Part shown: positions 21,712-54,617 of the stretch, piece after piece | Numbering within the stretch: position 1 is the first letter of the stretch | How the letters are laid out: each line of letters begins with the position of its first letter | From: Candidatus Desulfofervidus auxilii | Lineage (GTDB): Bacteria > Desulfobacterota > Desulfofervidia > Desulfofervidales > Desulfofervidaceae | Length of the DNA: 64,000 nt | Assembly (NCBI GenBank): GCA_030262725.1 | Contig: JAJSZS010000002.1 | Coordinates: 124,001-188,000, forward strand | Direction: 5' to 3' | Notes under the pieces: generated by a model | Database searches by the model: none | What the model was told of the DNA's origin: nothing | What the model saw: only the letters and a program-made list of their open reading frames with translations | Program-made: the position numbers and the translations under genes

Positions 21712-24015
21712 ATGAAAACGTGTCTTCTTGCTAGATATATTTTAAAATTTCGTTTTATAGGTGTATTTTTTCCACTATTACTTTGTATATTTTCTCTTTT
21801 TATAATTAGGGATTTAAAAATCGAAACTCATCAATATGACTTTATTCCTACAAATCATTCCTTCATTTCTGTTCAAAAGATACTTACTGATATCTTTGGT
21901 GGGCTAAATCGAGTAAATATTGCTATTGAAGCAAAAAATGGTAATATACTGAAACCTTCTATTTTAGAAAAAGTAAAAAATCTAGCAGAGGAAATTCAAC
22001 TTCTTGATGAAGTTGATCCAAGACGGGTACGTTCTATTTTCTCCCATAATATTAAACATATTGAAGTACATCCTGATGGTTTTTATGTACAGAGGCTTTT
22101 AAGAAATGTTCCCTCTTCTCCTGAAGAAATAGCTGTTTTAAAAAAGAAAATTTTAAAAAATCCTTTAGTTTATGGCCCTCTTATTTCTAAGGACTTTAAA
22201 GCCACACTTATTCAGGCAGAGTTTCGTGAGGATGTGTCTTCAAAAAAGATATATTCCAAAATTAATGAGATTATCAATCGTTATCATGGAGATGATGTAA
22301 ATATTTATATTAGTGGTCGTCCAATCTTAGAAGGCTATATTGATGCCCATTTGACCTCTATTATTCATGTTTTTTTAGTTACTTTAGTTATTATCCTGTT
22401 TCTACTATTTTTAGCCTTTCAGAAAAAACGCGGTTTTTTGTTGCCCCTTTTAGCTGCTAGTATGTCAGTAGTTTTCAGTATGGCAACTTTAAACTTGCTT
22501 CATCTTCGCTTAAATCCTTTTACCATCCTGCTTCCTTTCCTTATCTTTGTTTTAACTATTGCTCATAGTATCCAATTCATGGAGCGATATTTTGAAGAAA
22601 GTTCTGTCAACAGAGATAAAACTCAAGTAGGTTATGCTGTTTTAAGCTCTTTATTAAATCCCATTCGCGCTTCACTTTTTACAGATTTTCTAGGTTTTGC
22701 CTCCCTTATTCTTATCCCTATCCCTGCCATGCGAACAATAGCTATTTTGGGTAGTTTTGGTGTATTGAGTATTTTTATTACTGTAGTTTTATTCTTGCCT
22801 GCTTGTTTTGCAGTTTTTTCTTTACCTGATGTCAAAAAAAATAATCCAAATTTAGGGCTAGTTGAGGCTATTTTAAAAAAGTTCATTAGTTTTTGGCAGA
22901 AAAAGTGGCAGAGATTTTTAATCCTTTTACTTTTTGTCTTTTTCTTTATTTTAGCTATTTACGGGTTAAGGCATATAGAAGTAGGAGAAAATGAACCAGG
23001 TACTTCTATCCTTTATCGTGATGCCCCATACAATGTAGCAGAAAGAAAAATCAATGATTATTTTTCTGGCTCAAATCCATACTATATCTTAGTTGAAGGG
23101 AAGGAGCCAGAAGCATTGCTTAAAGCAGAAGTAATTAAGGAAATGGATAATTTAGAAACTTTTTTAAGAAAAAATTTAAAAGAAGCTGGTTATAGCCTTT
23201 CTATAGCTGATTATATGAAGCTCATGAATCTGGCTATTCAACATCGCTTTGAGGTGCCAAAAAAGGATAAAACTATAGGAGAGTATATTTTTCTTTATGA
23301 AAGTAATGCCTTTCCTGGAGAGTTTGATGTTTTTATTACACCAGACCACCGTTTTGCCAATATTCGGTTAGATTTGAAGGACTGCCGAGGTAAGACAATA
23401 GAGAAGGCTATCACTTTAACAGAAAAATGGGTCAAAGAAAATCATAACAGTCCTTGGGTAAAATTTAAATATGCTGGTGGCTTAATTGGTATTTTAGGGG
23501 CAACAAATGAAGTGATTAAAGATGGATTATTTATAAGTATGGCAGTCTTAAGTGTTCTCATTTTTATTCGCGTAGCTTTAGCACTTCGTTCTTTTACTGG
23601 TGGTCTTATCCTTTTTATTCCATTGATTTTCAGTATGGCTGTTACATTTGGTAGTTTTGGTCTTTTTCATATTCCTTTTACTGTAGCTACTTTGCCAGTA
23701 GCTGCTATGGGGACAGGTCTTGGCATTGACTTTAGCATCTATTTAGCTTCTAGGATTAAGGAAGAAAGAGAAAAAAATAAAGATTTAATTACTGCTATAA
23801 ATCAAGGTGTTCTTACTTGCGGTAAGGCTGTATTTTTTACAGGTACAATTCTTACAATTGGCGTCATATCTTGGTTATTTTCTTCTTTAAAACTTCAGGC
23901 TAAATTAGGTGGCACTTTAGGATTCCTTTTATTTTTAAATATGCTATCTGCTCTGATAATTTTACCTATATTTCTGTTAATATTCAAACCAAAATTTTTA
24001 GGAGGAAAACAATGA
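21712..24015 (+). CDS. MMPL-type RND exporter
   Basis: 767 residues, about 12 membrane helices in two repeats of one plus five, each with a periplasmic domain (about 35-215 and 425-610). This is the predicted RND/MMPL exporter type (COG1033-like), the class that includes the hopanoid transporter HpnN and mycobacterial lipid exporters. The second-half motif GTGLGIDFSIYLASRIKEE near 665 is typical; in the first half the equivalent Asp site is replaced (FVLTIAHSIQFMER). First gene of a tight operon; overlaps the next by 4 bases. Cargo probably lipid or hydrophobic, by family and context. Confidence 0.88.
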   Translation: MKTCLLARYILKFRFIGVFFPLLLCIFSLFIIRDLKIETHQYDFIPTNHSFISVQKILTDIFGGLNRVNIAIEAKNGNILKPSILEKVKNLAEEIQLLDEVDPRRVRSIFSHNIKHIEVHPDGFYVQRLLRNVPSSPEEIAVLKKKILKNPLVYGPLISKDFKATLIQAEFREDVSSKKIYSKINEIINRYHGDDVNIYISGRPILEGYIDAHLTSIIHVFLVTLVIILFLLFLAFQKKRGFLLPLLAASMSVVFSMATLNLLHLRLNPFTILLPFLIFVLTIAHSIQFMERYFEESSVNRDKTQVGYAVLSSLLNPIRASLFTDFLGFASLILIPIPAMRTIAILGSFGVLSIFITVVLFLPACFAVFSLPDVKKNNPNLGLVEAILKKFISFWQKKWQRFLILLLFVFFFILAIYGLRHIEVGENEPGTSILYRDAPYNVAERKINDYFSGSNPYYILVEGKEPEALLKAEVIKEMDNLETFLRKNLKEAGYSLSIADYMKLMNLAIQHRFEVPKKDKTIGEYIFLYESNAFPGEFDVFITPDHRFANIRLDLKDCRGKTIEKAITLTEKWVKENHNSPWVKFKYAGGLIGILGATNEVIKDGLFISMAVLSVLIFIRVALALRSFTGGLILFIPLIFSMAVTFGSFGLFHIPFTVATLPVAAMGTGLGIDFSIYLASRIKEEREKNKDLITAINQGVLTCGKAVFFTGTILTIGVISWLFSSLKLQAKLGGTLGFLLFLNMLSALIILPIFLLIFKPKFLGGKQ

Positions 24016-25472
24016 AAGTATTATTTTTACAACCACCTATGGGAGGCTGGGTTACTTGGGGAAGGCATATTGCTATAAATGTCAACCATGCTCAATTAGC
24101 CGCTAATTTAAGAGAATGGTATCCAGAGATTGAAATTAAAGTTTTGGATTGTCGTGCTTTAAGGATGGATGAAAAACAGATGATTGATGCCATAAAAGAA
24201 ATAGAGCCTGATTTGGTTTATATGGGAGATGCCTTACAAACAACAGGTGTAGCTGCCATTCATCCAAGGTATAAAAATGCAGCTAATCTTATTAAAAAAG
24301 TCCTGCCAGAGACGTTGGTCTGTGTAGGTGGATTTTTTTATGGAGCAAATGCAGAAAAGATGCTTGAAGAAACACCTGAATTTGATTTTGTCATTTCTGG
24401 TGAAACAGAAGTTACTATGCCAGAACTGGCGAAGGAATTAAGCAAAAAAGACCCCAATATCCCTTCAATTAAAGGTTTAGCTTATCGTGAAAATGGGATT
24501 GTAAAACTTACAGAATATCGCCCTTTAATAAAGAATTTAGATGATTTACCTCTGCCAGCTTATGATTTATTCCCCATGGATAAATATATCGGTTTTAATT
24601 ATGTGAGGCATTATGTTGAAACATATCATTCTAGGGGTTGCCCAAATGGATGTCGTTTTTGTGTAGGTTGGACAAATTATGACCCAAGGGGAAATAGGGA
24701 TTGGACTTGTTATCGCTTTCGTTCAGGCAAAAGAGTAGTAGATGAGTTGGAATTATTGGAAAAAAGATTTGGAGCAAAATGGGTAGTAATGATGGATGAG
24801 GATTTTAATGTAAATCGAAAAAGGATAGAGGAGCTTATTGAAGAAATGAAAAGAAGAAAACTTAAGATTAAATTCTTCTTTATGGGTCGTGCTCCTTATT
24901 TTTTAAGGGATAAAGATTTGCTTAAAGAATTAAGGGAAGTTGGTTTTATCTGTGGATTATTTGGTATGGAGGCAGTAGATGAAGAAACTTTAGAGAAGAT
25001 AAATAAAGGGATTAGGATAGATGAGGTAGAGGAGGCAATAAAAGTATTTCGGGAAAATAATATTATGTCTGTTGTTACTTGGATGGTAGGTTTCCCTGAT
25101 GATGATGAATGGAGGATTAAATATCGCTTTGAAAGGTTAGATAAGATTGATCCAGATATGGCTGCCTTACAAATTATGACACCTTTGCCAGGTATCCCTA
25201 TGTATGAGGAATTAAAACCTTATATTGTAGATAATGATTTAAGAAAATGGGATTTTCAACATGCAGTAGTAAGGACAAAATATTTAAGCAAAGAGGACTT
25301 AGGAAGATTAGCTGCTTGGTCAAATAGGGAATTTTATTCCAAACCAGGTCGCTTTCAAAGGATCTTATATTATAAAGGTTTTCATCCATTCTGCCGTCTT
25401 GTTGCTAGGTCTTATATAGAAACAGCAGAAGCCCATACAAGGGCAGCTGTTTATGATGAAATATTTGTTTAG
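24012..25472 (+). CDS. B12-binding-domain radical SAM enzyme
   Basis: 486 residues. Residues 1-145 form a cobalamin-binding-like Rossmann domain, though the classical DxHxxG loop is not evident (PRYKNAANLI occupies the region). The radical SAM cluster motif is SRGCPNGCRFC with Cys 210, 214 and 217. Overall architecture is that of BchE-like and methylating or adenosylating radical SAM enzymes. It makes a 5'-deoxyadenosyl radical; substrate unknown. The following phosphorylase, isomerase and aldolase genes suit a 5'-deoxyadenosyl product or by-product. Confidence 0.88.
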   Translation: MKVLFLQPPMGGWVTWGRHIAINVNHAQLAANLREWYPEIEIKVLDCRALRMDEKQMIDAIKEIEPDLVYMGDALQTTGVAAIHPRYKNAANLIKKVLPETLVCVGGFFYGANAEKMLEETPEFDFVISGETEVTMPELAKELSKKDPNIPSIKGLAYRENGIVKLTEYRPLIKNLDDLPLPAYDLFPMDKYIGFNYVRHYVETYHSRGCPNGCRFCVGWTNYDPRGNRDWTCYRFRSGKRVVDELELLEKRFGAKWVVMMDEDFNVNRKRIEELIEEMKRRKLKIKFFFMGRAPYFLRDKDLLKELREVGFICGLFGMEAVDEETLEKINKGIRIDEVEEAIKVFRENNIMSVVTWMVGFPDDDEWRIKYRFERLDKIDPDMAALQIMTPLPGIPMYEELKPYIVDNDLRKWDFQHAVVRTKYLSKEDLGRLAAWSNREFYSKPGRFQRILYYKGFHPFCRLVARSYIETAEAHTRAAVYDEIFV

Positions 25473-25482
25473 AGGATAAAAA

Positions 25483-26217
25483 ATGATGAAAAGGGATGTT
25501 CATATTACACCAATGGATTTATTAAAATCAGTTCAATTTAAAGAAGGGGATTTGGCAAAGATTGCTATTATCAGTGGACAACCTCAAAGGGTATCCATGG
25601 CTCTTGAAAAATTAAAAAATCCTATAAGAAATTTTAGTGCCTTTGGTTATACATTTTGGACGGGTAAATATAAAGATAAGCGGGTAACAGTAGGAAATGG
25701 TGGTCTTTATGCACCAGATTCAGCTTTAATTACTGAATTACTTTGTGTTGCTGGAGTAGATTATCTTATTAGGCTTGGTTCATGTGGAGGAATGCGAGAA
25801 GACATAAAGATTGGTGATTATGTATTGGCTGAGAGTGCTTTAAGAGGAGATGGGGTAACAAAATATTACGTAAGTGATGGTTTTATTCCTTATGCAGATA
25901 AGGAATTAAGCAATAAACTTGAAGAAGTTTTTAAAAAACGGGTGCATAGAGGCATAGTTTGGACAACTGATGCATTGCTTAGAGAGACAAAGGAATTAGT
26001 TAATAATGCTATTAGTAAAGGGGCAATTGCTGTAGATATGGTGACAAGTCCTTTTTTAACCATTGCTCAAATATATAAGAAGAAGGCAACAGCTATATTG
26101 GTTGTAAGTGACAATTTGATTACTGGTGAGATAGGTTTTTCAAGTATTAGATTCTTTGATGCAGAAAAAAGGATGATTGACCGTGCTTTTGATTTAATTG
26201 GAGTGATTGATGAATAG
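25483..26217 (+). CDS. nucleoside phosphorylase family protein (PNP/UDP type)
   Basis: 244 residues, PNP_UDP_1 fold. Phosphate-loop equivalent GQPQR at 32-36 (usual GDPxR), then GGLYAPDSALITELL near 73-87 and RLGSCGGM near 97. The usual ribose-contacting Met-Glu pair is replaced: VDMVTS at 184-189 instead of VDMES. The base-site SD at 209-210 is kept. In the operon it would release a base from a nucleoside by phosphorolysis; the changed pocket suggests a modified ribose. HpnG of hopanoid synthesis belongs to the same superfamily. Confidence 0.85.
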   Translation: MMKRDVHITPMDLLKSVQFKEGDLAKIAIISGQPQRVSMALEKLKNPIRNFSAFGYTFWTGKYKDKRVTVGNGGLYAPDSALITELLCVAGVDYLIRLGSCGGMREDIKIGDYVLAESALRGDGVTKYYVSDGFIPYADKELSNKLEEVFKKRVHRGIVWTTDALLRETKELVNNAISKGAIAVDMVTSPFLTIAQIYKKKATAILVVSDNLITGEIGFSSIRFFDAEKRMIDRAFDLIGVIDE

Positions 26218-27112
26218 TCCATTGGCGTTTCCGGTAAGATTTAAAAATAATACTATCTATGTCCTTGATGAGACAAGATTGCCATTTGAAGAAATTTATA
26301 TTGAAGTAAAAGATTTAAATGATGCTTTAAAAGTACTTGGTGAAATGAAGACAAGAGCCTTTGGGCAAGTATTATTATTTTTTTATACCTGTGTCCTCTT
26401 AGGGAAGGTTGATGAAGTCGCTTTAGCATTTAAAAAGAAGCGACCTACTTTTGACTTTTTTCATTTAGCAGAGATGGTAAAAGGAGTTTTTCAAAAAATG
26501 CCTGATATAAAAGAAGCAATAAATATCATTGTAAATGGATTTGAAAAGAAGAGAAAAGAGCGTGCAAAAAAACTGGCTCATTTATTGCCTAAATCTTCTC
26601 AGATTCTAACTATATGTAATCTAAATGGTGAGCTTGTTTATTTATATGAAGCTTTAAAAGAAATAAAAAAAGAAGCAATGTTTTTTGTTTCTGAGACAAG
26701 ACCATATTTACAGGGTACAAGACTTACTTTTTGGGAATTAAGTAAGGCTAATATTCCAGCAAAATTAATATGCGACAATCAAGCAGCTATTTTAATGAAA
26801 GAAAAAAAGATAAATTGTGTAATTGTTGGTTCAGATAGGTCTAATAAAAAGGGAGATATTATAAATAAGATAGGTACTTACCCCCTAGCTAGATTAGCTT
26901 ACCATTTTCATATTCCTTTTTATGTCCTTACCCAATATCCAAAAGAAATAGATATAGAAAAGATTGAAATAGAGGAACGTCCTGAAAGAGAAGTGTTTAT
27001 GTGGCTTAAGGAAAGAGATTTTCCAAAAGCAGTTTATCCAGCCTTTGATATTACTCCAAATAAATATATTTCTGGCTGGATAAATATTTCAGGTGAAATA
27101 AGATGCGTTTAA
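26207..27112 (+). CDS. MtnA-like sugar-1-phosphate isomerase (eIF-2B family)
   Basis: 301 residues. The C-terminal half is clearly of the methylthioribose-1-phosphate isomerase type: Cys137 in the ICNLNG segment, ETRPYLQGTRLT at 163-174, CDNQAAILM at 189-197, catalytic GSDR with Asp210 and KIGTYPLARLA at 221-231. Both residues needed for MtnA chemistry (Cys, Asp) are present. The N-terminal region is shorter and diverged. Such enzymes turn 5-substituted ribose 1-phosphate into the ribulose 1-phosphate. Overlaps both neighbours by about 10 bases. Confidence 0.85.
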   Translation: MMNSPLAFPVRFKNNTIYVLDETRLPFEEIYIEVKDLNDALKVLGEMKTRAFGQVLLFFYTCVLLGKVDEVALAFKKKRPTFDFFHLAEMVKGVFQKMPDIKEAINIIVNGFEKKRKERAKKLAHLLPKSSQILTICNLNGELVYLYEALKEIKKEAMFFVSETRPYLQGTRLTFWELSKANIPAKLICDNQAAILMKEKKINCVIVGSDRSNKKGDIINKIGTYPLARLAYHFHIPFYVLTQYPKEIDIEKIEIEERPEREVFMWLKERDFPKAVYPAFDITPNKYISGWINISGEIRCV

Positions 27113-27561
27113 AAGAGATAAATTTTACTTTGCTCATTTGGGGTATGCCCTCAAAAGAGGGAATAGAGAAAATTAAGAAAAATAATTTGCTTATTCTTGT
27201 TCCTGAAATGAGGCCTTATCTTTTAGGCTTAAAAGTAGCAGAAATACTGAAAGAAGAAGGAATAGAATCTATTTATGCCACTGATAATATGTTAGGTTTG
27301 CTTTTTTATAAAAATAAAATAAAAGAAGTTCTGTTTTTTTATAAGGACAAAAATAATAATCATTTTTTAGGTATTTGTGGAAGTCTTTATGTCTGCCTTT
27401 TAGCCAAATTGCATCAGGTGCCTATTAAGGCATTAAAAGGAGAAAAAATAAATTTTAAAAATCTTGATCAGGACGCATCAACTATTGATGGATATTTGTT
27501 TTTAAAAAATTCAGCTATAGAAGCAAGAGATGAATTTGTGCCTATGGAGATCATAAAATGA
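27103..27561 (+). CDS. truncated MtnA-like paralogue lacking catalytic residues
   Basis: 152 residues. Matches the C-terminal Rossmann half of the preceding isomerase: PEMRPYLLGLK at 34-44 corresponds to SETRPYLQGTR, DNMLGLLFY at 61-69 to DNQAAILM, and ICGSLYVCLLAKLHQVPI at 91-108 to KIGTYPLARLAYHFHIPF. The N-terminal helical domain is missing, and the Asp of GSDR is absent. It is intact, with coupled start and stop, so not obviously a pseudogene. A non-catalytic partner subunit is a reasonable guess, as eIF-2B family proteins dimerise. Confidence 0.75.
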   Translation: MRLKEINFTLLIWGMPSKEGIEKIKKNNLLILVPEMRPYLLGLKVAEILKEEGIESIYATDNMLGLLFYKNKIKEVLFFYKDKNNNHFLGICGSLYVCLLAKLHQVPIKALKGEKINFKNLDQDASTIDGYLFLKNSAIEARDEFVPMEIIK

Positions 27562-28526
27562 ACTATGAAAAAGAAAAAGAGGAAATCATATTTTGGGGGA
27601 GAAAACTATATGAAAGGGGTTTAGTTTGTGGTAGTTCTGGAAATATATCCAAAAAAGTTAATGATAAAATCCTCATTACTGCTCACAACAGCTATTTAGG
27701 CTTTTTAGAAAAAGAAGATATCTTAATTTTAGATAGAGATGGAAAAATTTTAGAAGGTGATAAAAAGCCTACTTCGGAAATAGCATTACATTTAGCTATT
27801 CATAAAAATTTTTCTGAAAAGATAGTTATTCATGCCCATTCACCCTATACAGTTTATTACTTTCAATATTTTAAAATATTAAAACCTCTCACTTTTGAAG
27901 AAAAATTTTATTTAGGAAAAATCCCAGTTATTCCTCAAAATACACCTACAGTTACAGATATTTTACCAGTTATTGATGCATTAAAGAAAAACAATATTGT
28001 TGTTTTAAAAAATCATGGCATTGTAGCCATTGGGAATGATTTTAAATCCACATTTTCATTAATTGAGCTTTTAGAAATAAATGCAAAATTAAGTCTAATT
28101 ACTCAAGCTATATCACAAGTAAAAGAAGAAATTAAGGAAGAAAGACATTTAGAAAAGTGTAAGTTATTTTCCAAAGAGCATATTTCTTCTTTAGTAGACA
28201 TTATAAACAATGATGAAACTGTTCAGTCTTTGGGAAAGACATATAACCTTACAACAATTTTATGTGTAAGGGACGAGAAAGAAGCAATTTCTTTTTATTA
28301 TGAAAAAGGAAAAATTATAAAGGTTAAAAATGATGAAGAAAATGCAGAGTTTATATTTTCAACAAAAAGGGAGATTTGGAAACAAGTATTTAATGGTGAG
28401 ATTGATCCATTTGTTGCTTTTAATCAAGGGAAAATAAAGTTAAAAGGTGATTTTAATAAGCTTTCCAAATGGTTTCCTGTTTTTGAAAGGACATTTGAAC
28501 TTTGGAAAAAAGTAGCAGTGGATTAA
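27558..28526 (+). CDS. class II aldolase fused to SCP2 sterol-carrier domain
   Basis: 322 residues. Residues 1-195 are a class II aldolase/adducin domain: GSSGNIS at 25-31, TSEIALH with Glu74, metal ligands His92 and His94 in HAHSPY and His153 in KNHGIV. Residues about 208-322 read as an SCP2-type lipid-binding domain, with IFSTKREIWKQVFNGEIDPF and GKIKLKGD (291-298). Such aldolases split ketose 1-phosphates into dihydroxyacetone phosphate and an aldehyde. The lipid-binding tail implies a hydrophobic aldehyde; this is inference. Coupled to both neighbours. Confidence 0.82.
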   Translation: MNYEKEKEEIIFWGRKLYERGLVCGSSGNISKKVNDKILITAHNSYLGFLEKEDILILDRDGKILEGDKKPTSEIALHLAIHKNFSEKIVIHAHSPYTVYYFQYFKILKPLTFEEKFYLGKIPVIPQNTPTVTDILPVIDALKKNNIVVLKNHGIVAIGNDFKSTFSLIELLEINAKLSLITQAISQVKEEIKEERHLEKCKLFSKEHISSLVDIINNDETVQSLGKTYNLTTILCVRDEKEAISFYYEKGKIIKVKNDEENAEFIFSTKREIWKQVFNGEIDPFVAFNQGKIKLKGDFNKLSKWFPVFERTFELWKKVAVD

Positions 28527-28529
28527 GGA

Positions 28530-29954
28530 ATGGAAAGTTATAGTATGTATATAGGTGGAGAATTTAGGGATAAAAAGGAAAAAGTCTTAATAGAAAATCC
28601 AGCTACAGAGGAAATTATTGCTCAGATGCCTCAAGCTGATGAAAATGATTTAGCATTCTGTATAGAAAAAGCAAAATCAGCACAAAAAATTTGGCAAAAT
28701 ACATCTTTTAAAGAAAGAAAAGCGCTATTATTGGAAATTTCTCAAACTATTCTTAAAAATTTAAAAAGATTAGCAGAATTAGAAACAATTGAAATAGGAA
28801 AACCTATAAAAGAAACACTTTTTGTTGATATTCCTTTAGCAGCTAAATGTTTTGAATATTATGCCTCTTTGATAGAAAATATTTCTTTTCCCTCCTTTTC
28901 TACTGAAGATACTATAGACATCATTCAATATCAGCCATTTGGCATTGCTGCAATATTTTTGCCATATAATGTTCCATTAATGATATTTGGTTTTAATGCC
29001 GCTTCTGCCTTAGCAGCCGGAAATGCCATTATTGTTAAACCATCTGAATTTGGCAGTTTATCTTTGTTAGAATTGGCAAAATATATTGATGAATTAGATT
29101 TTCCAAAAGGACTGATAAATATCATCACAGGAGAAGGGTCTATTATTGGAAAGGCATTAGCCTCATCTGATGTAGATATTATCTCTTTTACAGGCTCAAG
29201 CGAAAGTTTTAAGAAAATGTTTGAAAATATGAAAAATCCAAAAAAGATTATATGTGAATTAAGTGGTGTGAATTTAGCTATTGTCTTTTATGATGCTTTG
29301 TTGGAAGAGGCAGCCGAAAATATTGTTGCTTCAGCTTTTATGAAACAGGGACAAATGTGCATTAATACAAGTGTTTGTTTAGTTGAAGAAAGTATTTATG
29401 AAACATTTTTAAGAAAACTCATTGAAAAAACAGAAAAAATAAAAGTAGGAGACCCTACTTCTCCTTTAACAGGCATGGGGCCATTAAGGTCAAAAGAACA
29501 TTTAGAGGAAGTGATTAAAAAAGTAGAAAAATTTAAAGAAAAAGGAAAGATTACTAAAGGTGGAAATAGATTAGGGACAAAAGGCTATTTTTATGAGCCT
29601 ACTATTATAGAGATTGAGGAAATGATTTATGAGGAATGTTTTAATCCTATTTTGTTGATAAAGAAGTTTAAGGAAGCAGAAATAAAAGAGTTAATAGAAA
29701 ATAATCCTACCGGCTTAGTGCTTCAAATCTGGTCAAAAAATTTAAAAAAGGCAAAAGATTTAGCAATGAATGCTAAGTATGGGACTGTTTGGATAAATAC
29801 ATTTGCTCAGATGGATGCCTTTACCCCATTTGGTGGGTTTAAACAGAGTGGATGGGGAAGGGTATTAGGAAAATGGGGTTTATTTGAATATCTTCAACCA
29901 AAACATATTGGGATTTCTTTTAACAAAAGTCAGGTGTCAGGTTGGTTTGGATAA
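28530..29954 (+). CDS. NAD(P)-dependent aldehyde dehydrogenase
   Basis: 474 residues, full ALDH superfamily length. Catalytic Cys277 in GQMCINT, general base Glu243 in CELSG, cofactor region FTGSSES near 220 and NPTGLVLQIWS near 390. Oxidises an aldehyde to the acid. It follows the aldolase by 3 bases, so its substrate is probably the aldolase product. No acylating-dehydrogenase features are obvious, and an acid product would fit the downstream acyl-AMP ligase. Confidence 0.92.
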   Translation: MESYSMYIGGEFRDKKEKVLIENPATEEIIAQMPQADENDLAFCIEKAKSAQKIWQNTSFKERKALLLEISQTILKNLKRLAELETIEIGKPIKETLFVDIPLAAKCFEYYASLIENISFPSFSTEDTIDIIQYQPFGIAAIFLPYNVPLMIFGFNAASALAAGNAIIVKPSEFGSLSLLELAKYIDELDFPKGLINIITGEGSIIGKALASSDVDIISFTGSSESFKKMFENMKNPKKIICELSGVNLAIVFYDALLEEAAENIVASAFMKQGQMCINTSVCLVEESIYETFLRKLIEKTEKIKVGDPTSPLTGMGPLRSKEHLEEVIKKVEKFKEKGKITKGGNRLGTKGYFYEPTIIEIEEMIYEECFNPILLIKKFKEAEIKELIENNPTGLVLQIWSKNLKKAKDLAMNAKYGTVWINTFAQMDAFTPFGGFKQSGWGRVLGKWGLFEYLQPKHIGISFNKSQVSGWFG

Positions 29955-29974
29955 ACCTTAAAAGGAGGTAAAAA

Positions 29975-30838
29975 ATGAAGAAGTTTTTGTTATGGGTTTG
30001 TTTTTTAATCTTTTGGTCAAGTCTTGCCTTTTCTGCTACTTGCCGTCCGCCTGATTTACCAGAAAGTCCAACAGTAGAGCAGATTATGAAAAGGTGGTTT
30101 GATATTAAATTCACACGTTATGCAGATGATGTCTATTACACAGGACAAGTAGTTATGATTGATAAAACAGGATTTAAAAGGACAAAAAAATGGATTAGGC
30201 GCCGTTTAATTATGCATGGGAAAAAGGGAGTAGATTATAAAGATTTAGTTGTTATGACATATCCTGAATATACAAAGGGTTTGGCAGTTTTAACTTGGGC
30301 ATATTTAGATGTAAGAAAACAAAATGACCTTTGGCTTTGGTTGCCTTCTTTGAAGAAGATAAGGAAAATATCTCAAGCAGAAGAAGATGATGCATTTTTG
30401 GGTAGTGAATTTACAGTAGAAGATATCACTACAAGACGTTATGGTTATGAAAGTTATGAACTTTTAGGAGAAGAAAATTTCCCAGGCTATACAAGTCGTT
30501 ATGATGGAAAGACATATTTTAAAAATACACCATGTTATAAAATAAAAGGTATTCCAAATAAAAAGGATTGGTATTATAGCTATCGTATTATTTGGGTAGA
30601 TAAAAAGACAGGTATTTGTATTTTTGATGAATTTTACGATAAAGCAGGCAGAAAATTTAAGATTGTCTTTCGCTACTATATTACTCCAGAAAAAGATTGT
30701 TGGGTTTCAAAGATATGGGAAGTCTATAATTTCCGCACAGGTCACACTGATTGTATAGACATTCAAACTTATAAATTCAACATTGGTTTAAAAGAACGCC
30801 ATTTTAGTCCAAGAATTCTTGAAAGAATGGAATGGTAA
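29975..30838 (+). CDS. outer-membrane lipoprotein-sorting (LolA-like) periplasmic protein
   Basis: 287 residues, signal peptide about 1-21 (hydrophobic core LLWVCFLIFW, cleavage near AFSA). The mature part has the LolA-like family traits: RGYDK-like start, DYKDLVVMTYPEYTKGLAVLTW, NDLWLWLPSLKKIRKI near 110 and LGSEFTVEDI near 133. This family is often encoded beside MMPL/RND exporters and is thought to carry hydrophobic cargo across the periplasm. Ribosome binding site AGGAGG. Confidence 0.85.
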   Translation: MKKFLLWVCFLIFWSSLAFSATCRPPDLPESPTVEQIMKRWFDIKFTRYADDVYYTGQVVMIDKTGFKRTKKWIRRRLIMHGKKGVDYKDLVVMTYPEYTKGLAVLTWAYLDVRKQNDLWLWLPSLKKIRKISQAEEDDAFLGSEFTVEDITTRRYGYESYELLGEENFPGYTSRYDGKTYFKNTPCYKIKGIPNKKDWYYSYRIIWVDKKTGICIFDEFYDKAGRKFKIVFRYYITPEKDCWVSKIWEVYNFRTGHTDCIDIQTYKFNIGLKERHFSPRILERMEW

Positions 30839-30849
30839 GGAGGTACAAG

Positions 30850-32250
30850 ATGAAGAGATTAATAATCTTTCTATTAGTATTATGGCCTATTATTAGCTAT
30901 GGGACTATTTTGGAAAAAGGCCCAATTACAATAGAGGGTTATATAAAGAATGAAACTGGATGGAATATGAATGAAAATAAATTTATGAAGATTTTGAATG
31001 TAATTGATCTAAGAGGACAATTTAGACCAAATGATTACCTTTCTTTTTATGCACATATCAATAAATTTTGGGATAGTGCTTATGGACGTGTAGGTGAATA
31101 TAGGGCAGCTAAAGATGATATGTACACAAATAAGGCTTGGCATGGTTTGAGTTGGGTAAGGGAAATGTATGTAGACTTTTTTTCAGACTATGTGGATATA
31201 AGGGCAGGAAAACAGATTGTGACTTGGGGAGCAGCAGATGGTATCAGGATTCTGGATCAAGTTAATCCTTTAGATTATAGAGAATTTACTTTAAAAGATT
31301 GGAATGAAATAAAGATTCCACTTTGGATGTTAAAAGTTGAGATTGCTCCTACAGTAAATGGCAGTCTTCAATTTTTATTTATACCGGATTTTGAACCAAA
31401 TTATTTAGCTACAGATAACGCACCTTTTGCATATACACTAACAAGAGATGCATATAATGCATATAAAATATTAAGAAATTTTGGTTATCATGTTGTAATA
31501 AAAAAAGAAATGCCAGCTGAAACATTTGAAAATGCAAAATTTGGTATCAGATGGCGGGATGTAATAAATAGTTTTGAATACACATTGAATTACCTTTATG
31601 GCTGGAATATGAATGCAGAAACTTATTCTTCAATAGATATGACTACAGCTACAGGCCCTTCTCCTCTTCCTGGTTATCCTCCTATTGGTTCTACATATTA
31701 TTTTGTTAAAAAATATAGTCGTATTCATCTTTGGGGTTTTTCTTTTTCAAAAACTTTAGTGAGCGGACTATTACAAGGTCTTACTATTAGAGGTGAATTT
31801 GCTTATTTTAAAGATGTTCCTATGGCATATAGATTACAGTCAAAAACCTATTATCATAAAGTTGACCAATATAAATATGTTATTGGATTAGACAAATATA
31901 TTGTTACAAATTGGCTTTTTAGTTTTCAATTTATACAATTAATAAATAGTAAAGGGAGCTGCCAAGGGCAAAAATTCATATTACCTTCAGGTGGTACGAT
32001 GGATAAAGTTTCAACTTATTTAACCTTAAAAATTGCTACTGATTTCTTTCATGAAAGAGTAAAGCCTGATATTCTTATTCTTTATGGTGATGACAATGAA
32101 TGGCGTATTAGTCCAAAGGTTTATATTGAAATCGGTGATCATGTTACTACAACAATTGGTATGCATATATTTGAGGGTGATGCTGAGGAATTATATGGAG
32201 AATTTGATGACAAAGACGAAATCTATTTCCAATTAAAGTACAGCTTTTAG
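30850..32250 (+). CDS. outer-membrane beta-barrel protein, DUF1302-like
   Basis: 466 residues from the ATG at 30850, which has GGAGG; a Met 18 bases upstream lacks one. Signal peptide (RLIIFLLVLWPIISYG), then many alternating aromatic strands and a C-terminal Phe (YFQLKYSF), the outer-membrane sorting signature. The part VDFFSDYVDIRAGKQIVTWG near 115 is like DUF1302-family porins that accompany RND and LolA-like genes. Probably the outer-membrane partner of the exporter. Confidence 0.82.
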   Translation: MKRLIIFLLVLWPIISYGTILEKGPITIEGYIKNETGWNMNENKFMKILNVIDLRGQFRPNDYLSFYAHINKFWDSAYGRVGEYRAAKDDMYTNKAWHGLSWVREMYVDFFSDYVDIRAGKQIVTWGAADGIRILDQVNPLDYREFTLKDWNEIKIPLWMLKVEIAPTVNGSLQFLFIPDFEPNYLATDNAPFAYTLTRDAYNAYKILRNFGYHVVIKKEMPAETFENAKFGIRWRDVINSFEYTLNYLYGWNMNAETYSSIDMTTATGPSPLPGYPPIGSTYYFVKKYSRIHLWGFSFSKTLVSGLLQGLTIRGEFAYFKDVPMAYRLQSKTYYHKVDQYKYVIGLDKYIVTNWLFSFQFIQLINSKGSCQGQKFILPSGGTMDKVSTYLTLKIATDFFHERVKPDILILYGDDNEWRISPKVYIEIGDHVTTTIGMHIFEGDAEELYGEFDDKDEIYFQLKYSF

Positions 32251-32259
32251 GAGGAAACA

Positions 32260-33711
32260 ATGGATGTTTATAAAGCTTTAGAAAAATTAGCTCAAAAATA
32301 TCCTCAAAAAGAGGCATTAATCTTTGGTGAAAGAAAAGATACATTTGAAGAGTTATTTATAAAAGTAAGACGCTTAATGGGCTCATTTAAAGCATTAGGT
32401 ATGGAAAAAGGGCAAAAAATTGCTATTTATTTACAAAACTGTCCAGAATATGTGTATGCTTATCTAGCAGGATTAAGTTTAGGAATAACAATTGTGCCTT
32501 TAGATATGTCTTTAAAAACAGAAGAATTAAAAAATATTTTGTCCCATTCTGAAGCAGAATATTTAATTGCCCAAAAAAATATAAGATTGGAATTGCCTAA
32601 TTTAAAAAAATTAGATATAAATACTTTAATTTCTCAAGGAGAAAAAATAGATGGAGAAACAGTTAAAGAGACAGATTTAGCTATTATTATTTATACTTCT
32701 GGCACAACAGGTATACCAAAAGCAGTCCCTTTGACTTATAGACATCTTGATTCCCCTGTCGCTACTTTAGGCTATTTTGGTTATGATGAATGGCTTGAAA
32801 GAAATATTTGCTATATACCTCTTTCTCATATGGGAGGTCTTGTTTATCTTCTAATGACCCTTGGCTTTGGCAGCACTTTGGTATTAGGGAAAAAGTTTAT
32901 TCCTGGTGTTTTTTTAAGAGAACTTGATAAATATAAAATTACAGCCACTTGGCTTCCTCCTTCTATCTTAGAAATGCTTTTAATGACAAAGGAAATAAAT
33001 GAAGTTTCATTAAAATCTTTAAAAGCTATTGTCTATTTTGGTGCTCCTAGCCATCCAAGATTATTTATGGAATTTGAAAAAAGATTTCCTCATATAAAAG
33101 GTGTTACAGGTTGGGGATTAACAGAATCTGCAGCACCAAATGTACTTTTGCCAAGAGACATGCCTAAAGAAAAGAGATATAAAAAGGGGATTGTTGGAAA
33201 ACCTGCTCCTTGGGTAGAAATAAAGATTGTTGATGAAGAAGGGAATATGCTTCTACCTGGACAAATAGGAGAAATATTGTTAAAAGGTTGGTTTGTTATG
33301 CCTGGATATTATAAAGCACCACAATTGACAAAAGAAGTAATAAAAGATGGTTGGCTCTATACAGGAGATTTGGGATATTTAGATGAAGAAGGATATCTTT
33401 ATATTACAGGGAGAAAAAAAGAAGTAATAATTGTAGGAGGTCTTAATGTCTATGCAAGTGAGGTGGAATTTGTTATCTCTGAGCATCCAAATGTGAAGGA
33501 AGTGGCAGTGGTGGGTGTGCCAGATGAGTTAAGAGGGGAGACAGTTAAGGCTGTAATTGTTACTAATGATGGCACACAAATAAGCCCTCAAGAAATTATA
33601 AATTTTTGTCGTAAAAGATTACCAAGTTATAAAATGCCCCGAATTATTGAATTTAGAAGTAGTTTACCTAAAACACCATTAGGAAAAATCAAGAAGGCAG
33701 AATTAAAGTGA
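32260..33711 (+). CDS. acyl-AMP ligase / acyl-CoA synthetase (ANL family)
   Basis: 483 residues. ANL motifs: IIYTSGTTGIPKAVPLTY near 145-162, GWGLTES near 287, LYTGDLGYLDEEGYLYITGR near 366-385 and the catalytic C-terminal Lys in PLGKIKK. It activates a carboxylic acid as adenylate and normally passes it to CoA. Located after the aldehyde dehydrogenase and export genes, it might activate the acid made by this operon or a fatty acid for the next protein. Confidence 0.9.
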   Translation: MDVYKALEKLAQKYPQKEALIFGERKDTFEELFIKVRRLMGSFKALGMEKGQKIAIYLQNCPEYVYAYLAGLSLGITIVPLDMSLKTEELKNILSHSEAEYLIAQKNIRLELPNLKKLDINTLISQGEKIDGETVKETDLAIIIYTSGTTGIPKAVPLTYRHLDSPVATLGYFGYDEWLERNICYIPLSHMGGLVYLLMTLGFGSTLVLGKKFIPGVFLRELDKYKITATWLPPSILEMLLMTKEINEVSLKSLKAIVYFGAPSHPRLFMEFEKRFPHIKGVTGWGLTESAAPNVLLPRDMPKEKRYKKGIVGKPAPWVEIKIVDEEGNMLLPGQIGEILLKGWFVMPGYYKAPQLTKEVIKDGWLYTGDLGYLDEEGYLYITGRKKEVIIVGGLNVYASEVEFVISEHPNVKEVAVVGVPDELRGETVKAVIVTNDGTQISPQEIINFCRKRLPSYKMPRIIEFRSSLPKTPLGKIKKAELK

Positions 33712-34811
33712 TTCAGATAAAAGAGGTTAAAAGTAAATCAGAATTGAATAAATTTATTAAACTTCCATGGAAAATCTATAAGGATAATCCTTATTGGATT
33801 CCTCCTTTAATTTCAGAAAGAAAAAAATTTTTAGATCAAAAGAAAAATCCATTTTTTAAACATGCTAAGGTTAAGCTATTTTTGGCTTATAAAAATAGTG
33901 AAATTGTAGGGAGAATAGCAGGTGTAATAGATTATCAATACATTAAATATTATAAAAAAAATGCAGGTTATTTCGGCTTATTTGAATGTATCAATGATTA
34001 TGCTGTTGCCTCTGCTCTTTTTAAAAAAGTTGAAATTTTTTTAAAAGAAAATGGAATAGATTGCATCCTTGGCCCAATGAACCTTTCTACAAACCATGAA
34101 TGTGGTTTGCTAATAGAAGGTTTTAACCTTCCTCCTGTAGTTATGATGCCTTATAATCCTCCTTATTATCAAAAATTTATAGAAAAATATGGTTTTAAAA
34201 AGGCAAAGGATCTCATTGCCCATTTTGTTGATTTTAGTAAGGTAGATGAAAATGTATTTGAAAAAATTAAAGAAAAGGCAAATAAAAAGGATTTAAAAGT
34301 AAGGGAAATTAAAATAAATGATTCAGCAGAAATAAAGAGAATAAAAGAAGTTTATAATAATGCTTGGGGAAGAAACTGGGGATTTGTCCCTTTAACAGAT
34401 GAAGAATTTGATTATACAGCAAAGGAGTTAAAAAAAATTGTCATTCCTGACTTAGCTTTAGTAGCAGAAAAAGATGGAAAAATTGTTGGATTTAATATAG
34501 CTATTCCAGATATCAATCCAGTGTTAAAGAAATTAAATGGAAAACTTTTTCCTTTTGGTATATTTAAATGGCTTTATTATTCTAGAAAAATAAATCTTGT
34601 GCGTGGTTTAACATTAGGTATAAGTGAGAAATATAGATTTATTCTTGGCCCTTTGCTTTTTTTAAAAATTCTTGAAGTATCAAAAAAAAGAGGCTATTTA
34701 AAGTGGGAAATTGGTTGGGTATTAGAAGATAATGCTATTGTAAATAATGTTTTAAAAAAGATAGGTGCTAAGCCTTATAAAAGATATAGAATTTTTATCA
34801 AACAAATCTAA
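33708..34811 (+). CDS. GNAT-like acyltransferase
   Basis: 367 residues, GTG start overlapping the ligase stop by 4 bases. It opens with the pattern LPWKIYKDNPYWIPPLISER seen in a family of large GNAT-fold proteins of unknown substrate, with NHECGLLIEGF near 128 and LLFLKILEVSKKRGYLKWEIGWV near 310-335. Likely moves an acyl group; pairing with an acyl ligase suggests it uses the product of that enzyme. Last gene of the 11-gene operon. Confidence 0.72.
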   Translation: MIQIKEVKSKSELNKFIKLPWKIYKDNPYWIPPLISERKKFLDQKKNPFFKHAKVKLFLAYKNSEIVGRIAGVIDYQYIKYYKKNAGYFGLFECINDYAVASALFKKVEIFLKENGIDCILGPMNLSTNHECGLLIEGFNLPPVVMMPYNPPYYQKFIEKYGFKKAKDLIAHFVDFSKVDENVFEKIKEKANKKDLKVREIKINDSAEIKRIKEVYNNAWGRNWGFVPLTDEEFDYTAKELKKIVIPDLALVAEKDGKIVGFNIAIPDINPVLKKLNGKLFPFGIFKWLYYSRKINLVRGLTLGISEKYRFILGPLLFLKILEVSKKRGYLKWEIGWVLEDNAIVNNVLKKIGAKPYKRYRIFIKQI

Positions 34812-34981: not shown

Positions 34982-35521
34982 GTGGAACAAATTAGGAAAT
35001 TCTTATCTGAAAAAAAATCCAATATTTTAAATAAGTGGTTTGAAAGGATTGTAAGTACGTATCCACTTGAGACACAAAAATTCCTTCGTAGAGAGAAAGA
35101 TAGATTTGCTAATCCTGTAAGAAGCAGGGTTTGGGAAGGTATAGAAGGTGTAATTAATGCTCTTATTAAAGGGGATGAATCAAATATATCAACTTCTTTA
35201 GATAACATAATTAGAATAAGAGCAGTACAAGATTTTACTCCTGCACAAGCTTTAGCATTTATATTCTTCTTAAAAAAGGTAGTTCGTGAAGAATTAACTG
35301 AAGTAACAAAAAATAGCGAATTGTTAAATGAATTATTAGAATTTGAAAATAAAATAGATGAGTTGGCATTGCTTTGCTTTAATATTTATATGCAGTGTCG
35401 AGAAAAAATTTATGAAATAAGAGTAAATGAAATAAAGAGACTTACATATAGTTTGCTAAAACGAGCAAATTTAATATATGAGATTCCTGATTTTAAAGAC
35501 TACAAAAAGACTATAATTTAA
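34982..35521 (+). CDS. RsbRD N-terminal-domain protein
   Basis: 179 residues, GTG start with GAGGT 4-8 bases upstream. The sequence is the all-helical RsbRD N-terminal (RsbT co-antagonist) domain: KSNILNKWFERIVSTYP near 13 and FTPAQALAFIFFLKKVVREEL near 80-100. In several sulfate reducers such a gene precedes dsrMKJOP. Presumed sensor or regulator; there is no STAS output domain. Fifteen bases from dsrM. Confidence 0.83.
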   Translation: MEQIRKFLSEKKSNILNKWFERIVSTYPLETQKFLRREKDRFANPVRSRVWEGIEGVINALIKGDESNISTSLDNIIRIRAVQDFTPAQALAFIFFLKKVVREELTEVTKNSELLNELLEFENKIDELALLCFNIYMQCREKIYEIRVNEIKRLTYSLLKRANLIYEIPDFKDYKKTII

Positions 35522-35535
35522 AATGAGGTGAATAA

Positions 35536-36546
35536 ATGAGTTTTAATCTTGCTTTTTACTTTTCATTTTTTGTTGTTTTAGGTTTAATAGGAATAGCATT
35601 GCTTGGTGTAGCTGGAGCAAAGTTGTATGTGGTTTTTGGAGTGGTGATTCCTTATCTTTCTGTAGTGATATTCTTTGCAGGTATGATTTATCGGGTATTT
35701 AAATGGGCAAGTTCACCTGTACCTTTTAAGATTCCTACTACTTGTGGACAACAGAAAAGTCTTCCTTGGATAAAATATAGTCGTCTTGAAAGTCCTTTTA
35801 CCACTTTTGATGTAGTATTGAGAATGTTACTTGAGGTATTATTTTTTAGAAGCTTGTTTAGAAATGTGAGGGTAGAAATAAGGAAAGGAGGGCCGAAAGT
35901 TATTTATTGGTCAAATAAATGGCTCTGGTTAGGTGCCATTCTTTTCCATTATTCTTTTCTTATTGTTCTAATTAGACATTTAAGATTTTTTACCACGCCA
36001 GTTTGGTCTTTTGTGCGTTTGATTGAAAGTGTGGATGGTTTTTTACAGGTAACTTTACCAGGATTATATATAAGTGGTATAGTTCTTTTAGTAGCTACTG
36101 TTGCTTTACTTTTAAGAAGAGTATTTGTACCGACATTGAGATACATTTCTTTAACATCTGATTATTTTCCATTATTCCTTATTATAGGAATTGCCCTTAC
36201 AGGTATTATTATGCGTTATATTTATAAGGTAGATATTGTTTCTGTAAAAGAATTAACGATGGGGCTTGTTACCTTTCATCCTAAAATACCAGAAGGTATA
36301 GGTAGTATATTTTATGTTCATTTGTTTCTTGTAAGTGTTCTTTTTGCATATTTTCCATTTAGTAAATTAGTTCATATGGCAGGTGTATTTTTGAGTCCAA
36401 CTCGAAATATGCCAAATAATAATCGAGCAGTTAGACATATTAATCCTTGGAATCCGCCTGTAGAAGTACATACTTATGAAGAATGGGAAGAAGAATTTAA
36501 AGATAAAATTAAGGCTGTGGGATTACCATTAGAAAAGGAGGAATAG
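35536..36546 (+). CDS. dsrM: DsrM, membrane cytochrome b-type subunit
   Basis: 336 residues, about six membrane helices, NarI-like. Conserved His such as LGAILFHYSFLIVLIRHLRFF (two helices of paired His) and HLFLVSVLFAYFPFSKLVHMAG near 255 are heme b ligands. DsrM takes or gives menaquinol electrons for the DsrMKJOP complex, which reduces the DsrC trisulfide in sulfite reduction. Ribosome binding site GAGGTG. First of five contiguous subunit genes. Confidence 0.95.
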   Translation: MSFNLAFYFSFFVVLGLIGIALLGVAGAKLYVVFGVVIPYLSVVIFFAGMIYRVFKWASSPVPFKIPTTCGQQKSLPWIKYSRLESPFTTFDVVLRMLLEVLFFRSLFRNVRVEIRKGGPKVIYWSNKWLWLGAILFHYSFLIVLIRHLRFFTTPVWSFVRLIESVDGFLQVTLPGLYISGIVLLVATVALLLRRVFVPTLRYISLTSDYFPLFLIIGIALTGIIMRYIYKVDIVSVKELTMGLVTFHPKIPEGIGSIFYVHLFLVSVLFAYFPFSKLVHMAGVFLSPTRNMPNNNRAVRHINPWNPPVEVHTYEEWEEEFKDKIKAVGLPLEKEE

Positions 36547-36549
36547 AAA

Positions 36550-40828: not shown

Positions 40829-41017
40829 ATGCCATTTAGACCAAGTAATGACAAGGATTGCTGTACGGGGTGTGGTGAATGCGTAGAGATTTGTCCAGTA
40901 AATGTGTGGGAATTGGTAGAAGGGAAATCGGATCCGGTAAATGCTGATGAATGTGTAGGTTGTATGAGTTGTGTTGAGGTTTGCCCAGATAATTGTATTA
41001 CTGTAGAAGAGATATAA
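40829..41017 (+). CDS. 2x[4Fe-4S] ferredoxin
   Basis: 62 residues. Two classical cluster motifs: CCTGCGECVEICP near 12-24 and CVGCMSCVEVCP near 42-53. Cytoplasmic low-potential electron carrier. Strong ribosome binding site (AGGAGGT), own promoter and own terminator, next to dsrMKJOP, so perhaps feeding the sulfate-reduction machinery. Confidence 0.95.
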   Translation: MPFRPSNDKDCCTGCGECVEICPVNVWELVEGKSDPVNADECVGCMSCVEVCPDNCITVEEI

Positions 41018-41045
41018 AAAATTCAGAAAAAAATTTATAAGAAGG

Positions 41046-41069
41046 GGGGAGGAAACTCCCCTTTTTTAT
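41046..41069 (+). terminator. rho-independent terminator after ferredoxin
   Basis: GGGGAG / CTCCCC with loop GAAA followed by TTTTTT. It ends 11 bases before the tldD start. Confidence 0.88.
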
Positions 41070-41079
41070 TTTAATAACA

Positions 41080-42447: not shown

Positions 42448-42451
42448 ATTC

Positions 42452-44354: not shown

Positions 44355-44776
44355 AATACTTCTAATTCTTCCCTTGCTTTTTGAAAACCACGATAAAGAT
44401 TCTCATAAGCTTTTACAATATGAGGTAAAAATTCTGCTAAATTAGGTAAATCTTTTGGATTCACAATAGCATTAACATTTTTTGAAAAAGCAGAAAATGG
44501 ATTTAATGTTTCAAGCTCTGCATCAATAAGAACAAAAATCATTCTACGTCTTTTTTCTGGTGGGAACTGAGTAATAATTTGTTCTATATGTGGGTGAGTT
44601 TTAAGATAGTCTGAATTGACAAAAATTAACCTATATTCTCCTCCAAGAAGTTCTTGAACAACTCCTTCTTCATCTCTAGGAAGTACTAATTTAAATTTCC
44701 AATTAAGCTGCTCACAAGCACTTTGAATAATCTCTAAAGGTACACCAATAAGTAAGATATCATAAAATTCTGCCAT
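44351..44776 (-). CDS. receiver-like hypothetical protein linked to pilT genes
   Basis: 141 residues, alpha/beta pattern resembling a degenerate response-regulator receiver (YDILLIGVPLEIIQSACE, then EYRLIFVNSDYL and IVNPKDLPNLAEFLPHIVKAYENL). No clear phosphoacceptor Asp on the usual strand. Nine bases after the second pilT-like gene, so probably a regulator or partner of twitching motility. Converges with the ABC gene, sharing TTAA. Confidence 0.65.
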   Translation of the reverse strand: MAEFYDILLIGVPLEIIQSACEQLNWKFKLVLPRDEEGVVQELLGGEYRLIFVNSDYLKTHPHIEQIITQFPPEKRRRMIFVLIDAELETLNPFSAFSKNVNAIVNPKDLPNLAEFLPHIVKAYENLYRGFQKAREELEVF

Positions 44777-44785
44777 AATTTGCCT

Positions 44786-45952: not shown

Positions 45953-45955
45953 ATT

Positions 45956-48578: not shown

Positions 48579-48580
48579 TT

Positions 48581-52206: not shown

Positions 52207-52220
52207 CTAAATTAAGCATA

Positions 52221-52249
52221 AACATAGCTTGAGTAAAGAAAGGCGTCAA
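52221..52249 (-). promoter_or_regulatory. accC operon promoter
   Basis: Minus strand TTGACG, 17-base spacer, TATGTT. Predicted start near 52214, implying a very short leader. Confidence 0.5.
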
Positions 52250-54605: not shown

Positions 54606-54617
54606 GATTTTTCTCCT

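Follow-up and report, generated by a model that had tools for sequence, protein, structure and literature searches.

Several described systems share part of their gene content or plan with the locus analysed here, an operon of Candidatus Desulfofervidus auxilii at positions 21712–34811 of the window, that is, the whole 64,000-nucleotide stretch under analysis. In the dihydroxyacetone phosphate (DHAP) shunt for 5-deoxyribose disposal (drdK or a phosphorylase gene, drdI, drdA), a phosphorylase or kinase, an MtnA-like isomerase and a class II aldolase are encoded in a cluster, as in the operon. The latter adds an SCP2 fusion, a dead isomerase half, an altered phosphorylase site, and an aldehyde dehydrogenase (ALDH) and a ligase. 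It also differs in that this operon type is tied to a cobalamin radical SAM enzyme and a type II polyketide synthase, and coexists with canonical MtnA. The fluoroacetate pathway of Streptomyces cattleya and Nocardia (fl and nob genes) has the phosphorylase, isomerase, aldolase and ALDH in common with the operon and converts a 5′-substituted adenosine into a substituted acetate, which is a biosynthetic use of the shunt. There, fluorinase acts first, SCP2, ligase and polyketide synthase are lacking and the aldolase is encoded outside the cluster, whereas the families of the eleven genes include no SAM halogenase.

Hopanoid side-chain assembly (HpnH, HpnG, HpnN) follows the same plan of lipid adenosylation and then phosphorylase action, with an HAE3-family RND protein. 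All five sugar carbons are kept in that system, while the prediction for the operon is that just two of them remain, and HpnH and hopene cyclase are absent. For export, the AmeABCD system of Castellaniella defragrans brings together DUF1302, DUF1329/LolA-like and HAE3 RND proteins in one operon, as observed here, and AmeABCD and HpnN are exporter precedents for hydrophobic compounds (PMC6394551). AmeABCD is tied to monoterpene degradation, whereas the present exporter accompanies biosynthesis-type genes, and no AmeC-like COG4447 gene was found among the eleven. Finally, type II aromatic polyketide synthases share with the partner clusters described below a KSα with Cys-His-His, a Cys-less KSβ, an ACP, an SRPBCC aromatase, a PF04199 cyclase and a ketoreductase. 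The partner clusters differ in having an anaerobic set, with a cobalamin radical SAM enzyme and an aldehyde:ferredoxin oxidoreductase, and in being accompanied by the adenosine-trimming module; that of the window genome also has a glycyl radical enzyme, unlike usual type II systems. Taken with the results below, which place this gene set beside aromatic polyketide genes in many uncultured anaerobic bacteria, the gene content suggests that two carbons of SAM are built into a greasy natural product, and not that waste recycling alone takes place.

Operon Organization

Re-measurement of the reading frames, coordinates and junctions confirmed the preliminary description of this Ca. Desulfofervidaceae locus as an operon of eleven genes, all on the plus strand. 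That description made no mention of the cobalamin binding of the radical SAM enzyme, the dead isomerase half or the polyketide genes on a different contig. From the start and stop positions, the ten junctions in 5′ to 3′ order are −4, +10, −11, −10, −4, +3, +20, −7, +9 and −4, with overlaps of at most 11 bases and gaps of at most 20, while 170 bases separate the eleventh gene from the next one downstream. Promoter and terminator scans gave site numbers not above those of shuffled sequence. Gene families were assigned by Pfam and NCBIfam profile matches.

The last gene (33708..34811) shares 4 bases with the ligase gene and encodes a 367-aa protein of no family, with no match in Pfam, NCBIfam or PDB. 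This gene was not seen in other clusters of the module type.

Enzymes of the Module

The PNP-type nucleoside phosphorylase (25483..26217; PF01048, PNP_UDP_1, 2.5e-36) has the Sulfolobus MTA phosphorylase 1jds as its nearest solved relative. Its ribose site is altered: the ribose-binding Glu is gone in all 23 members checked, where DMV replaces EME (D185-M186-V187 in 23/23, one with a V-to-I change). The phosphate-binding R36 and R97 are retained.

The next gene (26207..27112; PF01008) encodes a trimmed MtnA-like (IF-2B) sugar-1-phosphate isomerase, in which the MtnA catalytic Cys and Asp (C137, D210) are conserved together with R50 and R79, and the loops are shorter than in canonical MtnA. It is followed by mtnA2 (27103..27561), an IF-2B piece of 152 aa that was recognised by Pfam, AF2, Foldseek and alignment as a lone C-terminal Rossmann half of MtnA. 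Its AF2 model has a pLDDT of 90.7 and retrieved MtnA/R15P isomerases in Foldseek with E about 1e-7, while the alignment shows that the catalytic Cys and Asp are absent. Judged from its sequence, mtnA2 is a putative catalytically dead, half-size partner of the isomerase.

A separate canonical MtnA was found in 23/23 genomes tested, and a 100/100 branch of 1.9 changes per site divides it from the module isomerase in the tree. Since all genomes tested thus have a canonical MtnA of their own, apart from the module, methionine salvage was rejected as the function of the module. The window genome has further separate genes for a PNP-superfamily protein and a plain class II aldolase.

The class II aldolase of DrdA/FucA type and its SCP2 domain are encoded in one reading frame (27558..28526; PF00596 1.4e-35, PF02036 4.7e-8), and the SCP2 domain is present in 35 of 38 orthologues. 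E74, H92, H94 and H153, which correspond to the catalytic Glu and the metal-binding His triad, are invariant. In Foldseek, the best structural match of the aldolase domain was DrdA, a 5-deoxyribulose-1-phosphate aldolase (6btg, E 4.8e-16). No SCP2-domain structure appeared among the best 50 Foldseek matches, the domain assignment resting on Pfam, and a search of the literature for class II aldolases with a fused SCP2 domain gave nothing relevant. An SCP2 domain binds hydrophobic compounds in general and is no proof of a lipid substrate.

The ALDH (28530..29954; PF00171 2e-125) is of the hydrolytic type, with the catalytic C277 and the general base E243 kept in at least 90% of 37 sequences. The acyl-CoA/acyl-AMP ligase is encoded at 32260..33711 (PF00501 2.5e-75; PF13193).

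Radical SAM Enzyme

The second gene (24012..25472; PF04055, PF02310) encodes a B12-binding radical SAM enzyme that resembles BchE, HpnJ and HpnR and not HpnH. BchE was the best NCBIfam model, at 220 bits against a cut-off of 481. C210, C214 and C217 show a conservation of at least 90%. In the tree, the enzymes of the window and of exporter-type clusters (group A) stand apart from those of polyketide clusters (group B). The adenosylating step first proposed for this gene found no support, the enzyme being of the cobalamin/BchE type, most characterised relatives of which methylate or form rings. No BchE-family enzyme is known to transfer an adenosyl group to a substrate.

Conservation of the Module

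The gene set recurs in four further genomes of Desulfofervidales, two of which have it in a different arrangement, and the core was found outside Desulfofervidales in other Desulfobacterota, in one MAG filed under Deferribacterota and in Omnitrophota. Chance gene order was ruled out by this synteny. Phosphorylase, isomerase, aldolase-SCP2 and ALDH genes make up a conserved module, most instances of which come from Ca. Omnitrophota. Of the 27 larger loci that have the isomerase, 25 carry a cobalamin radical SAM gene.

Association with a Type II Polyketide Synthase

Among 117 Omnitrophota genomes, 22 carry a type II polyketide chain-length factor of the family associated with the module. The full aldolase-SCP2 is present in all 22; three further genomes have the aldolase alone and 92 have neither (Fisher p about 7e-21, with shared ancestry uncorrected). 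In 19 of the 22 pairs, both genes lie within about 13 kb on the same contig. In this sample, every genome with the polyketide synthase also has the module, while the module is also present in genomes that lack the synthase. About a dozen linked clusters have no phosphorylase gene.

According to the active-site columns, the linked clusters encode a KSα with Cys-His-His and a KSβ without the active Cys. In the window genome, KSα, KSβ, ACP, aromatase, cyclase, ketoreductase and amidohydrolase genes lie outside the window on contig C13, on which the ACP frame was read. The KS pair of this genome matches those of the linked clusters at 64–69% and scores as the same chain-length factor family. The solubility of the KS/CLF pair of Ca. 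Desulfofervidus auxilii in E. coli was tested earlier (PMC6638757). No account of so strict a link between nucleoside-dismantling genes and a single polyketide family turned up in the literature searched.

Proposed Route and Alternatives

The preferred reading, with a probability of about 0.5, is a dedicated anaerobic biosynthetic route in which a 5′-substituted adenosine is converted to R-CH2-COOH and then activated, R being bulky or hydrophobic. The analysis establishes the gene content, its conservation, the separation of the paralogues and the co-occurrence; R and the product are predictions. The cobalamin radical SAM enzyme would make R-CH2-adenosine, joined via the 5′ carbon of the adenosine. 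The phosphorylase, judging by its family and the retained phosphate-binding Arg, would exchange adenine for phosphate, and the isomerase, with its family and retained Cys/Asp as grounds, would turn the resulting ribose 1-phosphate into the corresponding ribulose 1-phosphate, probably in complex with mtnA2. The DrdA-like aldolase would then release dihydroxyacetone phosphate and R-CH2-CHO, with the SCP2 domain gripping the hydrophobic R. Oxidation by the ALDH would give R-CH2-COOH and the AMP ligase would form its CoA ester, so that R would be lengthened by two carbons, 4′ and 5′ of the SAM ribose. In most genomes, a type II aromatic polyketide may use the acyl unit, or the acyl unit may be made on the polyketide; in the window genome, the polyketide cluster for it would be the one on the other contig. 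The product may be exported by the AmeABD-like RND/DUF1329/DUF1302 system, a role that an MFS protein may take in other lineages.

This chain largely follows that of the preliminary description, which is chemically sound and is backed by the retained catalytic residues and by DrdA as closest structure, except for the adenosylating step. A biosynthetic DHAP shunt for a hydrophobic substrate gained support from the canonical MtnA paralogues, the SCP2 domain in 35/38 orthologues, the altered phosphorylase site and the polyketide co-occurrence. Against the preferred reading count the lack of a known adenosyl-transferring enzyme in the BchE family, the clusters without a phosphorylase gene, and the genomes G003 and G004, in which the ALDH orthologue and the polyketide synthase are missing. 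The more specific proposal that the cobalamin enzyme links the 5′-deoxyadenosyl group from SAM to a carbon atom of a polyketide or lipid, with the module trimming the adduct (R-H to R-CH2-COOH to R-CH2-CO-CoA), is tentative. The reverse direction, nucleoside formation from DHAP and an aldehyde, is less likely because the hydrolytic ALDH (E243, C277) and the ligase draw the aldehyde onward.

It is also possible, though not probable, that the module is a cluster-dedicated salvage system with R = H. The radical SAM enzyme would methylate, cyclise or oxidise a lipid or polyketide and free the inhibitor 5′-deoxyadenosine, which the phosphorylase, isomerase and aldolase would convert to DHAP and acetaldehyde, and the ALDH and ligase to acetyl-CoA. 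DrdA, to which the aldolase domain is structurally closest, prefers acetaldehyde, the same enzyme trio constitutes the known 5-deoxyribose disposal pathway (PMC6079011), and a cobalamin radical SAM gene accompanies most clusters (25/27, as above). Methylating cobalamin radical SAM enzymes, moreover, release 5′-deoxyadenosine, which the module could recycle, and most characterised enzymes of this kind do methylate (PMC13142503). However, 5′-deoxyadenosine needs no SCP2 fusion, loss of the ribose-binding Glu, loop trimming or dead isomerase half, and canonical MtnA is separate in every genome tested, besides the PNP-superfamily and plain aldolase genes of the window genome.

Supply of a starter unit is unlikely, although the fluoroacetate pathway has the same phosphorylase-isomerase-aldolase-ALDH order (PMC3999930, PMC6079011) and the route ends in an acyl thioester via the ligase. 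Here, a small acyl-CoA from 5′-deoxyadenosine, methylthioadenosine or another small 5′-substituted adenosine would prime the polyketide synthase or, in its absence, fatty acid synthesis, which agrees with the one-sided occurrence of synthase and module in Omnitrophota. An ordinary acetyl starter, however, needs no special route, and the SCP2 fusion and the hydrophobic-type exporter indicate a larger substrate. The hopanoid parallel of the preliminary description, in which an adenosylated triterpenoid is trimmed and then exported, fails if taken literally and is very improbable. The RND protein, radical SAM enzyme and phosphorylase do give weak matches, below cut-off, to HpnN, HpnJ/HpnR and HpnG, respectively, but squalene-hopene cyclase (PF13243) gave no match in the 99.99% complete genome, HpnH was above cut-off in 0 of 12 module genomes and no terpene cyclase gene was noted in the clusters.

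If the preferred biosynthetic route is correct, SAM would be a source of two-carbon building blocks in these anaerobes, by radical adenosylation followed by DHAP-shunt chemistry. This would be a new C–C homologation sequence and an oxygen-free way of extending carbon skeletons. An aromatic polyketide or lipid of Omnitrophota and Desulfofervidus would then be built with a SAM-derived carboxymethyl unit, which would bear on the orphan type II polyketide cluster of Ca. Desulfofervidus auxilii and offer a way into the chemistry of Omnitrophota and this methane-oxidation partner bacterium. Even under salvage, the strict tie of a nucleoside-dismantling set to one polyketide family would be one without a description in the literature searched.

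Export Genes

Three genes of the operon encode the putative export system: an HAE3/MMPL-type, AmeD/HpnN-like RND exporter (21712..24015; PF03176 1.9e-36, TIGR00921 HAE3 5.8e-57, HpnN 8.3e-22 and below cut-off), an AmeB-like LolA-like/DUF1329 periplasmic protein (29975..30838; PF17131 2.2e-37, PF07044 2.2e-10) and a DUF1302 outer-membrane protein (30832..32250; PF06980 2.5e-19), with AmeA as precedent. Export and ligase genes had been proposed to act together with the nucleoside chemistry. The part from the phosphorylase to the ligase holds as a core, with the ligase linked in 20 of 38 loci carrying the isomerase, but the export part does not: since exporter genes are linked in only 8/49 loci, export is an optional partner. 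The RND exporter gene is syntenic in the genomes G001, G003, G004 and G005, two of which (G003 and G004) are without an ALDH orthologue and a polyketide synthase.

Organization of the Operon and Its Relatives

Eleven open reading frames lie on the plus strand at 21712-34811, where neighbours either overlap by 4-11 bases or are 3-20 bases apart and 170 bases separate the last from the next gene, which confirms the eleven-gene operon of the preliminary description. Pfam and NCBIfam searches identified an RND protein (MMPL/HAE3), a B12-binding radical SAM enzyme, a phosphorylase (PNP_UDP_1), an MtnA-like isomerase (IF-2B), a second IF-2B piece of 152 aa (mtnA2, 27103..27561, plus strand), a class II aldolase with an SCP2 domain (Aldolase_II+SCP2), an ALDH, LolA_like/DUF1329 and DUF1302 proteins and an AMP-binding ligase. 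A 367-aa protein had no match in the family searches. Directly downstream, at 34982-38205, a gene for an RsbRD_N-domain protein precedes genes for nitrate-reductase-gamma-like (DsrM-like) and Fe-S (DsrK-like) proteins, which look like a separate DsrMK-type unit.

The organism belongs to the Thermodesulfobacteriota, and its genome (G000) was assigned to the family that also includes G003 and G004, in both of which the operon genes are reordered and ALDH is missing. G001 and G005 carry near-identical gene sets. A pattern scan covering bacterial as well as archaeal genomes gave 48 loci encoding relatives, mostly from Ca. Omnitrophota. The loci are MAG contigs, often short. Neighbourhood clustering of 49 aldolase loci, many ending at contig edges, showed linkage to MtnA (38), ALDH (37), cobalamin radical SAM (33), mtnA2 (26), PNP (24) and ligase (21). 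The exporter RND gene was linked in 8 of the 49. In L036, L037, L038, L040, L041, L043, L047, L050 and L051, the part of the contig that was viewed holds isomerase and aldolase-SCP2 but lacks a phosphorylase gene.

In Omnitrophota the more frequent neighbours are two ketosynthases, an ACP, an aromatase, a PF04199 cyclase, an SDR, an Amidohydro_2 protein, a PanE-like reductase and an MFS protein. L036, with an SDR and an amidohydrolase alongside the exporter trio, bridges the exporter-type and polyketide-type clusters. Eleven loci have an RlmN-like gene downstream of their cluster (L034, L036, L039, L040, L047, L054, L055, L058, L060, L071, L075). Two Elusimicrobia loci, L045 and L072, hold aldolase relatives in a different neighbourhood, the L072 match spanning the aldolase part only. 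Aldolase or SCP2 fragments, partial or with in-frame stops (G005:C74:7552-7910, G169:C3:60090, G159:C2:482325), are possibly decayed copies.

Active-Site Features

The phosphorylase keeps arginines equivalent to the phosphate ligands R24 and R87 of E. coli DeoD, and the ribose-binding Glu, E181 in DeoD, is replaced by Val or Ile in 23/23 module phosphorylases. This Glu is retained (DMET) in a paralogue that G000 encodes at another place.

The isomerase retains Cys137 and Asp210, the catalytic residues of MtnA, and Arg50/Arg79, and has lost loops relative to canonical MtnA, including the segment past the catalytic Cys. Canonical MtnA (about 285-325 bits) was present besides the module type in all 8 Desulfobacterota genomes and all 15 others tested; in G009 and G083, where the module loci lie at contig edges, it was the only copy detected. 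In a tree of 49 sequences, the 11 canonical MtnA fall on one side of a branch of length 1.9 (support 100/100). The mtnA2 product, restricted to one part of the tree, has a predicted fold corresponding to MtnA's C-terminal Rossmann half and contains neither catalytic residue.

The aldolase retains Glu and three His, and SCP2 is present in 35 of 38 orthologues. The predicted structure has a pLDDT of 94, with low confidence in a linker around 183-200, and best matches DrdA. A plain class II aldolase without SCP2 (G000:C12:13387-13908) adjoins UbiD/UbiX/UbiA-like and nucleosidase-like genes in locus L083 (5164-11002), a cluster that is perhaps quinone-related.

Association with Type II Polyketide Synthases

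Among 117 Omnitrophota genomes, drawn evenly, 22 encode the chain-length factor of the linked clusters and all 22 a full-length aldolase-SCP2; 3 have the full-length aldolase without the factor, and 92 neither full gene, five of these holding fragments or plain aldolases (Fisher p about 7e-21, uncorrected for shared ancestry). In 19 of the 22, the two genes share a contig and are no more than about 13 kb apart. KSalpha of the linked clusters retains Cys-His-His, where KSbeta has Arg or Lys, Asp and Asn instead; these residues are the signature of a ketosynthase/chain-length-factor pair.

In G000 itself, the polyketide cluster L080 (G000:C13, about 40900-56150) encodes a cobalamin radical SAM enzyme, aldehyde:ferredoxin oxidoreductase, PanE-like and TIGR04076 proteins, KSalpha, KSbeta, ACP, cyclase, aromatase, SDR, Amidohydro_2, a PFL2-3 family glycyl radical enzyme together with the activase, and another cobalamin radical SAM enzyme, this one close to that of the window. 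In G001 the first part of such a cluster is present, without the glycyl radical part; G003, G004 and G005 carry the operon with no chain-length factor of this family. Since the module also occurs without the synthase, the polyketide cannot be the sole acceptor. The KS/CLF pair of Ca. D. auxilii had been noted before (PMC6638757), and Omnitrophica is listed among phyla having KS-CLF (PMC10132072). Our literature search found no paper linking these polyketide genes with the adenosine-trimming genes.

Proposed Function

From family knowledge and PMC6079011, the reaction order would be phosphorolysis, isomerisation, aldol cleavage to DHAP and an aldehyde, oxidation and activation. A dedicated biosynthetic use of the module is given a probability of about 0.5. 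A bulky 5' substituent (R) on adenosine is favoured by the SCP2 fusion, the altered sites, the redundancy with canonical genes, the polyketide synthase tie and the hydrophobe-type exporter. Dedicated salvage of 5'-deoxyadenosine (R = H) is less probable; the aldolase's likeness to DrdA speaks for it, as does the cobalamin radical SAM enzyme, which should release 5'-deoxyadenosine. Supply of a small starter is considerably less probable still. Cobalamin radical SAM enzymes are known to carry out methylation or ring formation (PMC13142503), so the direct adenosylation that biosynthetic use might involve would be new.

Methionine salvage was rejected, and the operon was judged not to serve hopanoid assembly, the parallel drawn in the preliminary description. 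The exporter resembles AmeABCD (PMC6394551), but without AmeC. By its gene families, the operon would work like the DHAP shunt, whose defining gene content it has, and like the fluoroacetate route (PMC3999930).
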